This document shows, one piece after another, positions 5,035 to 33,628 of a stretch of DNA of 36,761 nt. How positions within the stretch are numbered: position 1 is the stretch's first letter; the number at the start of each line of letters is the position of its first letter. This stretch comes from Westiellopsis prolifica IICB1. Its GTDB lineage: Bacteria; Cyanobacteriota; Cyanobacteriia; Cyanobacteriales; Nostocaceae. The notes beneath the pieces are model-generated. The model saw only the letters and a list, made by a program, of their open reading frames with translations, did not search any database and was not told the origin of the DNA. The position numbers and the translations under genes are program-made. Where the stretch lies: NCBI RefSeq assembly GCF_004323185.1, contig NZ_NAPS01000001.1, positions 3,439,271-3,476,031 of the forward strand. The letters run 5' to 3'.

Positions 5035-5257
5035 TGAATATTGCCTCGCAGCCAGTTCCGACACAAAATATAGAAGTATATCTTTTTTGATCGTAACTGT
5101 GCTTTTAGGTTTGGTGAGTGCGGCTGCATATAGAATTTAGGGCTACGCCGCCGCAGTTAATTTGATGTGCTAAGATGCCTTGACTGATATCTTGCACCAA
5201 CCCCGTATCCCGCCTCAGAATTAATTCTCAGGCTAATAGCATAAGTCCGTTAAAACG

Positions 5258-5359
5258 CAATACGGTTCAGATAAGACCACAATCTCTTGTAGAGACGCGC
5301 CATGGCGCGTCTCTACAGGTCAAATTTTTGCACTAAAAATCCTTAACTGAACCGTATTG
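5258..5359. mobile_element. 102-bp non-coding transposable element (MITE), copy 1
   Basis: The element begins CAATACGGTTCAGATAAG and ends CTTAACTGAACCGTATTG: 18-bp inverted repeats with one mismatch. It is flanked on both sides by the same 10 bp, CGTTAAAACG (5248-5257 and 5360-5369), a target-site duplication. The centre (5289-5316) is a perfect 28-bp palindrome built on GAGACGCG-CCATGG-CGCGTCTC. It is identical, in inverted orientation, to 25648-25749. The rest of the gap between queD and ureF (5035-5540) shows no gene. Confidence 0.9.
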
Positions 5360-5486
5360 CGTTAAAACGGACTCAAACATCGTCCTAGTCAGATTTATCT
5401 GACTTTAGCTATTAGCCAATAAATTTATTTATTGGCGGGATGAAAAGCTGATACAAGATATGAGTTGATGAATGACCAACATTTTG

Positions 5487-5507
5487 CAAAATCTAAAATC
5501 CAAAATC
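5487..5507 (+). repeat. Heptamer repeats (CAAAATC/TAAAATC) upstream of ureF
   Basis: Three consecutive 7-mers, CAAAATC, TAAAATC and CAAAATC. They are in frame with a longer ureF reading frame starting at 5472, which suggests that the extra N-terminal residues are intergenic repeat rather than protein. Confidence 0.6.
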
Positions 5508-5540
5508 GATAGACCACTCCCACGTCAAAAACAGATGCAC

Positions 5541-17818: not shown

Positions 17819-19366
17819 CATTGGTCACAAGTTAAGCTAAAAGCACTTTTGTCAATAAGTACAAATGCTCGTATTTGTCGGAGTGAAAAATTAAAATGTG
17901 GCGCTATTTATTAAGGGAGGGTTGGAAAAAAAATTCTTCGGGGCTTCGTTGAGTAGCAGGAAAGGGGGAGACAATCAGCCTGGTATTAGGTTTTCGCTCT
18001 CGCTTGACAATTCCTAAATCCCGATTTTTGGGGTCAGCAAAATACTTAATTGGGTCTGACTCTAATCCTTTTTCATAAGCTACAGAAAAATGATACATAC
18101 CTCGATAAATCATCTCTAAAGAAATATGCTCGAACGGTATTTCTAATTCATCTGCTACTCCATCTCCTAAATCTACTAAAATCGCATAAAATAGCCAAGT
18201 TCCCCAGATTTGTAATTGCACTCCATTGAGAGAACCAGTCCATAAATAACTTAAACATAGTAAGCGTTTCACCGTACAAAACGTATCCTCAATTCGCCAG
18301 CGTCTTCGATATAAATCTGCTACTACATAAGGGGGTAAAATTTGGGGTTCAAGTACACTAGTTAGATAGGAATGCCATGTCTTTCCTGACCGAATTTCTA
18401 CTAACCTTACAGTGACAATAGGTGTTTTTTTTGTGCCAGAACCTATCTTAATAATACGGTCTTTGATGTCATAACTACTGGTTAATACCTGCTCTACTTG
18501 ATAAGATGCCCCTTTCTTTATCCGAGTAATAAAATCAATTTTTCTGTTAATTAGTTCTTGCCAAAAAGTAAAATGATAGAAGCCTCTATCTAGCAGCAAT
18601 AAGGTGTTGGCTTTCACTAATCTAAGTAAATCTCCCTCCCAATGAGTATCTGCTTGCTTGGGATTTGTCCAAAACAAAATTTCTACAGGGAGATGAGTTA
18701 CTAAATCCATTAGTGTTCCCATTTTTCCCGCTAGTTGACCCTTTGGCGCATCTTCTAAACTTTTTAGTTTACAGAATAATGCTTCCAATGTTGAACCGTC
18801 TGCTATCCATATCCTTTCAAATCTTTTTAATGTAAATTGTATGCTTTCTGGTAATGGTCGAGAGCTTCTCAAAGACCATGCGTTTCTCAGATGAGGTAGT
18901 AATTCTTTAAAGACTCGTTCAAATAAAATGGCAGGAAAAGTTAAAAATCTTTGCGATAATGCTTGTTGTCTAACTTTTTGGGGTTCACACCACAAAAATC
19001 CCTCTCTGTTTAATAATCGGGTTAATTCTTGTACCCCAGGAACTTCTCGCCACAATAAAGTTAATACGGCGGCCACCATTAATGGTAGGTTGAGAATCCT
19101 GTCTCTTAATTTCAGTTGGCGGTAGTAGCTTTTTTGGGCAGCGATGGCTGGAGTTAATAGGTTTTCTAACCGACTGGCGATCGCTTCATTTTCCAGTTGC
19201 GGACGATTCTTCTTCTTCGCATGGTCTCGGTTAATGCTCTTGGTGCTACTCATGTGGGTTTAAGGGATGTCTCAATTCCTTTTTGGATATAGCTTGAGCG
19301 CCTATTTTACCGATTTTTGACATACCCCCTTGACAATTGGCTCTTTTTCTTAACTTGTGACCAATG
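17819..19366 (-). mobile_element. IS4-family insertion sequence, 1548 bp, complete
   Basis: The ends are perfect 18-bp inverted repeats, CATTGGTCACAAGTTAAG (17819-17836) and its complement (19349-19366), with weaker pairing continuing to TTGTCAA. The 9-bp duplication ACTCTATAT flanks it. A single intact transposase gene fills the minus strand. Intact ends, intact gene and a perfect duplication suggest a fairly recent insertion. Confidence 0.93.
17904..19253 (-). CDS. IS4-family DDE transposase
   Basis: A 449-residue cut-and-paste transposase. Catalytic residues are visible: D152 in WIADGSTLE, D222 in LLLDRGFY, and E322 within the IS4 signature Y-x2-R-x3-E-x6-K (YRRRWRIEDTFCTVK, Y315, R318, E322, K329). 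The N-terminal basic region (RDHAKKKNRPQ) probably contributes to end binding. The frame is uninterrupted, so it could be active. Downstream of its stop about 85 bp remain to the left end of the element. Confidence 0.93.
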   Translation of the reverse strand: MSSTKSINRDHAKKKNRPQLENEAIASRLENLLTPAIAAQKSYYRQLKLRDRILNLPLMVAAVLTLLWREVPGVQELTRLLNREGFLWCEPQKVRQQALSQRFLTFPAILFERVFKELLPHLRNAWSLRSSRPLPESIQFTLKRFERIWIADGSTLEALFCKLKSLEDAPKGQLAGKMGTLMDLVTHLPVEILFWTNPKQADTHWEGDLLRLVKANTLLLLDRGFYHFTFWQELINRKIDFITRIKKGASYQVEQVLTSSYDIKDRIIKIGSGTKKTPIVTVRLVEIRSGKTWHSYLTSVLEPQILPPYVVADLYRRRWRIEDTFCTVKRLLCLSYLWTGSLNGVQLQIWGTWLFYAILVDLGDGVADELEIPFEHISLEMIYRGMYHFSVAYEKGLESDPIKYFADPKNRDLGIVKRERKPNTRLIVSPFPATQRSPEEFFFQPSLNK

Positions 19367-25322: not shown

Positions 25323-25493
25323 ATGGCAGAACTGAATTTCACGATCTACGCACAAGAAAATACTAACTGGTGCTGGGCTGGTTGTTCATATAGTGTTGCC
25401 AAGTTTTATGAGCCAGCAACCTCTTGGACGCAAGCCAAAATTGTCAATGCTGAATTAGGGCGCACAGATTGCGAAATTAATGGTTCACAGTAA
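25323..25493 (+). pseudogene. N-terminal fragment of a papain-like cysteine protease
   Basis: A 56-residue frame from ATG 25323 (AAAGG upstream) with the active-site block QENTNWCWAGCSYSVAKFY, where Q and C match the oxyanion glutamine and nucleophile of AvrRpt2-like (C70) papain-fold peptidases. The catalytic His and Asp part is missing; the frame ends where a reversed SDR fragment begins. It is a truncated gene. Confidence 0.7.
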
Positions 25494-25590
25494 TCGACGC
25501 TTCTTGTTCTGCTAATTTTAACGCGATCGCACGTCCAATTAAGGGCGATGCACCTGTTACAATTGCAACTTTTCCTGCTAAAGATGGCAT
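25477..25590 (-). pseudogene. N-terminal fragment of a short-chain dehydrogenase/reductase
   Basis: Reading the minus strand from ATG 25590 gives MPSLAGKVAIVTGASPLIGR, then AIALKLAEQEASITV before a stop: the first beta-strand and the cofactor-binding TGxxxxxG of the SDR Rossmann fold, 37 residues of about 250. It converges on and overlaps the protease fragment by 17 bp, marking a deletion or rearrangement junction. This frame is shorter than usual gene callers report. Confidence 0.8.
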
Positions 25591-25647
25591 AATCATCCCC
25601 TGTGCAAATGGATACTGAATTTTACTAAGTTGATCTTATTTTTAAAC

Positions 25648-25749
25648 CAATACGGTTCAGTTAAGGATTTTTAGTGCAAAAATTTGACCTGTAGAGACGC
25701 GCCATGGCGCGTCTCTACAAGAGATTGTGGTCTTATCTGAACCGTATTG
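25648..25749. mobile_element. 102-bp non-coding transposable element (MITE), copy 2
   Basis: Base for base the reverse complement of 5258-5359. It starts CAATACGGTTCAGTTAAG and is flanked by a different perfect 10-bp direct repeat, ATTTTTAAAC (25638-25647 and 25750-25759). Different duplications at the two sites show independent insertion, and perfect identity shows that at least one insertion is recent. Confidence 0.92.
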
Positions 25750-25763
25750 ATTTTTAAACAAGC

Positions 25764-25903
25764 TGTCGTAACGACACAAACTTCTGTCGTAACGACACAA
25801 ACTTCTGTCGTAAGGACACTAACTTTTGTCGTAAGGACACTAACTTTTGTCGTAAGGACACTAACTTTTGTCGTAAGGACACTAACTTTTGTCGTAAGGA
25901 CAC
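25764..25903. repeat. 21-bp tandem repeat array, 6 full units and a partial one
   Basis: Units begin at 25764, 25785, 25806, 25827, 25848, 25869 and 25890 (partial). The first two read TGTCGTAACGACACAAACTTC; the next four read TGTCGTAAGGACACTAACTTT. The head of the first type, TGTCGTAACGACA, is an inverted repeat. There are no spacers, so not CRISPR. It begins 5 bp after the target duplication of the 102-bp element. Confidence 0.9.
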
Positions 25904-33550: not shown

Positions 33551-33628
33551 CAATACGGTTCGGTTAAGAATTTTCGTCATGATTTTGGGGTTGTACCAGT
33601 ACCAGACGCGATGAATCGCGTCTCTACA
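33551..33628. repeat. Degenerate one-ended relative of the 102-bp element
   Basis: It begins CAATACGGTTCGGTTAAG (one change from the 102-bp element end) and contains the AGACGCGAT...ATCGCGTCT palindrome with a third type of centre (33604-33623). The other terminal repeat is absent. The remaining gap 33363-33550 shows no gene. Confidence 0.65.

Follow-up and report, generated by a model that had tools for sequence, protein, structure and literature searches.

Recent 102 bp MITEs with the terminal inverted repeats and target duplications of IS4-subgroup elements in Westiellopsis prolifica IICB1

Nezha is reportedly one of the MITEs of cyanobacteria. Bacterial MITEs, those of cyanobacteria included, are short, non-coding and multicopy and are bounded by terminal inverted repeats (TIR), and this holds likewise for the elements described here. 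Cyanobacterial examples are listed in a 2024 review (PMC10969869). In Anabaena sp. 90, according to the paper on that genome, there are 147 MITEs and no matching insertion sequence (IS), and an autonomous mechanism was suggested (PMC3542288). The IS4 subgroup of transposase-encoding elements is defined, in the relevant portion of PMC2266710, by ends of the form -AATR--------WTW, target duplications of 10–13 bp, a length of 1400–1650 bp and a YREK motif. The present elements were found in a stretch of 36,761 nucleotides, referred to here as the window, from the genome of W. prolifica IICB1 (7.3 Mb in 29 contigs).

The preliminary description of the window had reported two identical 102 bp units at separate sites, and the two are perfect reverse complements of one another, with identity exact over the full 102 bp (Table 1). 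The 18 bp TIRs, one position of which had been given as A or T, agree at 17 of 18 positions, with A at one end and T at the other at position 14, and agreement stops beyond position 18. Each copy has its own perfect 10 bp duplication, CGTTAAAACG for copy 1 and ATTTTTAAAC for copy 2, and the two duplications differ, as had been claimed. The units had also been judged too short to code for anything; both are intergenic and no open reading frame (ORF) of at least 80 aa overlaps either one. Rfam gave nothing at gathering scores across the window and nothing up to an E value of 1 within 5100–5540. A sigma-70-type promoter at copy 1 was dropped as a candidate feature, with none found in 5064–5480 and 1.4 expected.

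Table 1. Coordinates in the window of the two MITE copies and their associated features
Feature	Position	Strand	Remark
Copy 1 host repeat, second dispersed palindromic repeat	5184..5466		~171 bp once MITE and one duplication are taken out
Copy 1 left target duplication CGTTAAAACG	5248..5257		perfect 10-bp direct repeat
MITE copy 1, 102 bp	5258..5359	+	reverse complement of 25648-25749; among five identical genome copies
Copy 1 left TIR CAATACGGTTCAGATAAG	5258..5275	+	IS4-subgroup end pattern (PMC2266710 Table 1)
Perfect 30-bp palindrome TGTAGAGACGCGCCATGGCGCGTCTCTACA, REP-like core	5288..5317		terminator-like on +, stem then T run
Copy 1 right TIR CAATACGGTTCAGTTAAG	5342..5359	-	identical to ends of IS4-subgroup elements in related genomes
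Copy 1 right target duplication CGTTAAAACG	5360..5369		perfect match to left one
Copy 2 left target duplication ATTTTTAAAC	25638..25647		present once at empty orthologous G002 site
MITE copy 2, 102 bp	25648..25749	-	orientation opposite to copy 1
REP-like palindrome core of copy 2	25690..25719		sequence
Copy 2 right target duplication ATTTTTAAAC	25750..25759		perfect match to left one

Seven copies were found in the genome. Five, spread over three contigs, are 100% identical along their full length, a sixth has 99% identity and a seventh 94%, and all seven are flanked by exact 10 bp duplications that are all different. The five identical copies fit the recent activity that had been deduced from the identity of the first two. 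When the genome was searched for the TIR pattern with up to three mismatches, 106 forward and 108 reverse matches were obtained, as against 4 and 7 for a reversed control. A set of 51 complete elements from this genome was then examined, drawn from the identity matches and from 100 of the 214 TIR-pattern places, and is not an exhaustive sample of the elements with such ends. Flanks were readable in 49, the other two having N in a flank. Most genomic copies had been expected to carry 10 bp duplications and they did so, with an exact duplication in 40 of the 49 and one mismatch in six; the three that failed were L230 (two mismatches), L016 (four) and L014 (five). When the left flank of one element was combined with the right flank of another, none of the 2352 pairings was exact and two had no more than one mismatch.

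The length was 113 or 114 bp in 33 of the 51 elements. Most of these belong to a sister family that is one TIR base apart from the family in the window, with CGG where the window elements have CAG, and they include 14 identical elements of 114 bp and seven identical elements of 113 bp. A lone CGG-type TIR lies in the window at 33551–33568 (+), followed by a MITE-like body and a degenerate palindrome with no right end; this is a decayed element of the sister family. Similar elements were found on plasmids in two records, both from Nostoc, and the better match was full-length, at 78% identity, with CCCTATTCCC on both sides. An exact 30-base pattern had no match in the genome contig database, from which the records of W. 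prolifica IICB1 itself were possibly left out. Matches to the element sequence occurred in 32 of 59 genomes, a tally that cannot be used as the distribution of the MITE because many of the matches cover the palindrome alone. The 102 bp units are real transposons of recent date, non-autonomous and bounded by ends of the IS4 subgroup.

Other repeated DNA surrounds or adjoins three of the five identical copies, namely copy 1, L002 and L005. The host repeat of copy 1 has the ends ATATCTTGCA and TGCAAGATAT and is present in many copies in the genus. Twenty copies of it were aligned, 12 from this genome and eight from the same-genus genomes G001, G002 and G003. The insertion point was uninterrupted, with a single target, in all 20 of these copies, which were picked from the match list, most of them because both halves stood side by side. 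The target was exactly CGTTAAAACG in 14 rows and a variant with one or two base changes in six. At the locus in G002 orthologous to that of copy 2, ATTTTTAAAC is present once and continues into the same tandem repeat. This repeat, of the kind CTGTCGTAACGACACAAACTT, lies to the right of copy 2 at window positions ~25763–25900 and is shorter in G002. To the left of copy 2, at ~25477–25590 (-), is a reading frame stopped after 37 codons, presumably a short-chain dehydrogenase start judging from its first residues; it is probably a pseudogene.

For the third identical copy, L002 (contig C8, position 1400663), a paralogous stretch on contig C12 carries GATTTAAACC once. The element is also absent at the orthologous locus in G002, since only 56 bp separate the matched flanks there. 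The fourth, L005 (contig C1, position 826194), is absent at the corresponding place in all three of G001, G002 and G003; the dispersed repeat that adjoins or contains it is likewise missing in these genomes, so this empty site is imprecise. Empty sites had been predicted for relatives, and they were found at the host repeat copies, at the G002 orthologue and at the C12 paralogue. Identical copies in opposite orientation inside one window, in an assembly with N gaps, could be taken to mean that recombination, gene conversion or an error of assembly, and not transposition, duplicated the unit. Against this, each site has a distinct duplication, empty sites exist and the five identical copies lie on three contigs; we regard such an origin as having a negligible probability. 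The copies are true insertions, as the preliminary description held, with different duplications and with empty counterparts for copy 1, copy 2 and L002. The elements inserted at sites that exist empty, generated 10 bp duplications and were recently amplified as identical copies.

A full-length IS with the same 18 bp ends, which had been suggested as the source of the transposase, was found in related genomes and not in the assembly of this one. Using the profile of the IS4 N-terminal domain (PF13006), 217 family-level genomes were searched; 107 contained matches, and 30 loci were taken from these. In five of the loci (L120, L121, L129, L140 and L141) the element is 1471–1488 bp long, has CAATACGGTTCAGTTAAG at either end and is flanked by exact 10 bp duplications, and a further IS of this kind, L143, has an exact 10 bp duplication and a single changed end base. 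The list of IS end pairs comprised 15, nine of them with an exact 10 bp duplication and six without. The transposase of L129, a 411 aa ORF, matches Nterm_IS4, DDE_Tnp_1 and the NCBIfam IS4 family model and carries the Y(2)R(3)E(6)K motif, YHQRWEVENTIDELK; no PDB chain matched it at an E value of 0.001. The ends, size, motif and duplication length of this IS all agree with the subgroup definition as set out in PMC2266710. Both ends of the MITE likewise fit the end pattern in Table 1 of that source, and its 10 bp direct repeats fall inside the range of 10–13 bp given there. When 60 bases from the ends of MITE and IS were compared there was no clear similarity past the TIR. The MITE is therefore no simple deletion derivative of these IS copies, and an internal sequence common to the two was dropped as a candidate. 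The likely driver of the MITEs is this 1.47–1.49 kb IS4-subgroup IS of related genomes.

The preliminary description had placed the transposase elsewhere in the same genome, and here it was not borne out by the assembly, which has N gaps. The PF13006 profile had no match in it, and the L129 transposase no close relative, the best local identity being 27%, in other IS4-family members. The MITE copies therefore look orphaned. The same query had 44% identity over 63 residues to a stretch of a 97 aa frame, which may be a remnant. Some of the N gaps run across copies of an ISAs1-like element, and with such gaps an unassembled or missed copy of the partner is possible. Within the genus, G002 has a full-length CGG-type relative of the transposase at 65% identity, plus fragments, and G001 and G003 have fragments. 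Relatives at 56–59% identity were found on cyanobacterial plasmids, accounting for four among the best 12 of 700 records, and plasmid-borne relatives would fit a visiting partner that was present transiently.

The genome has other transposases that might move the MITE in place of a missing partner. It contains 38 DDE_Tnp_1 matches, among them ORF 17904–19253 (-) in the window, which fits the NCBIfam IS4 model, and ISAs1-like elements would be further candidates, as ISAs1 elements also give duplications of 8–10 bp. However, the window IS that contains this ORF has the ends CATTGGTCACAAGTTA, which differ from the MITE TIR. Duplications of 9 bp were found in two of its four like-scoring loci (L091, the window copy, and L092) and none in L093 and L094. 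Its transposase is at best 24% identical over a full alignment, and 27% locally. Thirty of the 38 DDE_Tnp_1 loci were scanned for ends with up to six mismatches and no TIR pair was found; the only end within two mismatches of the TIR is a lone one at L114, which lies ~240 bp beyond the part that L114 and its sister copies have in common. A generic search for ends and duplications around resident DDE_Tnp_1 transposases covered five loci. With no matching end pair in the 30 scanned, the resident loci were rejected as partners, and mobilisation by another resident transposase seems improbable. In five loci (L114, L115, L116, L118 and L119), which we take to be ISAs1-like, copies of one element are broken by long N runs, and every one of the five carries an in-frame stop in an identical position, following ...GHWGVENR.

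Evidence connecting the MITE with the IS of related genomes came also from the targets. The comparison took in 84 of 114 TIR-bounded pairs, those whose duplications are exact, and left out the other 30. A TWWA centre was present in the duplications of 11 of 15 CAG-type ISs and 19 of 31 CAG-type MITEs, and in those of two of 30 CGG-type MITEs, none of six CGG-type ISs and neither of two mixed elements. The mean number of A/T in the central four bases was 3.67 for the CAG-type ISs and 3.48 for the CAG-type MITEs, and 2.03 and 2.17 for the CGG-type MITEs and ISs, respectively. The difference in central A+T between the CAG-type and CGG-type MITEs was reached by none of 20 000 permutations. These counts are not independent because many of the elements come from single genomes: this genome contributed 29 of the 30 CGG-type MITEs, G008 contributed 13 of the 31 CAG-type MITEs, and G123 four of the 15 ISs of the CAG type. 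Within this genome alone, counted by hand, a TWWA centre was present for seven of nine CAG-type MITEs versus two of 29 of the CGG type.

In a tree of the transposases built from 22 rows, 20 of them different, one branch with a support of 94 out of 100 separated 14 CAG-type from six CGG-type rows. Two lineages of transposase are thus told apart by the TIR base, and target choice need not be set by that base. The MITE and the full-length IS of related genomes have both their ends and their target preference in common. A preference common to CAG-type ISs and MITEs gives indirect support to mobilisation of the latter by that transposase.

The palindrome within the MITE, which occupies positions 31–60 of the element and is perfect, would permit a different reading, namely that the units spread through a REP palindrome system, moved by a REP-associated tyrosine transposase, with the outer TIRs incidental. 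The core is a palindrome of the GTAG type present in 138 strict copies genome-wide, and the genome has four Y1_Tnp matches. HUH enzymes, to our knowledge, normally produce no target duplication. The MITE copies, however, are bounded by TIRs and 10 bp duplications and not by the palindrome, so that what would be expected of a REP moved by a RAYT, a palindrome-bounded unit with no target duplication, is not what is seen. The palindrome was found with a looser pattern in 41 of the 51 examined elements and, among the places listed, at many for which no TIR was listed, and one 139 bp element, L031, has TIRs and an exact duplication yet lacks the palindrome as defined by the search pattern. Among the Y1_Tnp proteins scanned, two match the IS200/IS605 model, and their scores against the REP transposase model are under its cut-off. 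We consider this route highly improbable. A 268 aa protein with a Y1_Tnp match, encoded at L241 (contig C1, 732778–733116) near CGG-type TIRs at 733432 and 734213, is possibly a REP-associated transposase. The folding energy of the element in single-stranded form is -32.1 kcal/mol (z -10.4), and so strong a fold is expected of an inverted-repeat element. A terminator scan of copy 1 found one terminator-like stem followed by T, against 0.3 expected in shuffles, and the terminator-like palindrome is 112 bp upstream of a ureF-like ORF.

From these comparisons we infer that an IS4-subgroup transposase moves the MITE, and it is very probable that the MITE was inserted in trans by a DDE transposase of this subgroup making staggered cuts 10 bp apart in targets of the TWWA type. 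The MITE would act as a non-coding transposon with 18 bp terminal inverted repeats. The transposase, supplied in trans, would bind both ends and cut the element out; insertion would then take place at the staggered cuts, preferably where the centre is T(A/T)(A/T)A, and repair of the gaps would yield the 10 bp duplication. Cut-and-paste chemistry is established for the IS4 family and would extend here to the MITE. The source of the transposase may have been an IS copy that has since been lost, one that is unassembled, or one brought in transiently. A wider scenario can be offered tentatively. The CAG-type and CGG-type MITE families might each be tied to a separate lineage of IS4-subgroup transposases that differs in the targets it favours, both families having been amplified in a genome where neither transposase remains. 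The MITEs would then be a hit-and-run record, passengers left behind that spread terminator-like REP palindromes.

These elements are a further MITE of a known class, for which the evidence from sequence is unusually complete and whose driver was not found in the assembly of this genome. They provide a cyanobacterial MITE family that ends, duplication length and target preference tie to a specific transposase lineage, and the matching partner emerged only once related genomes were searched. Two MITE families and two transposase lineages make up matched and mismatched pairs, and the question of orphan MITEs is thereby directly testable. Among the ten papers listed by a search of the full-text literature for the letters of the TIR, none fitted by title.

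Relative to the IS4 subgroup as described in PMC2266710, the MITE has the end pattern and the duplication length and the partner IS has the size and the YREK motif; elements of the subgroup encode a transposase, whereas those in the window are 102 bp long and lack one. In IS4 of Escherichia coli, one end agrees with the MITE TIR in 13 of 18 bases and the other in 14. Its duplication is 12 bp, recovered here as a positive control, compared with 10 bp for the MITE, and its transposase is 24% identical to that of L129 over 382 aligned positions. The GTAG-type REP palindromes, in the portion of PMC3733652 that describes them, resemble the MITE core, which likewise starts with GTAG, ends with CTAC and is abundant outside the MITE. 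The likeness is to the general description of the type, and the palindrome here is inside a TIR-bounded transposon. Finally, the MITEs of Anabaena sp. 90, as summarised in PMC3542288, have no matching IS at home, whereas for the W. prolifica elements related genomes supplied an IS that matches.
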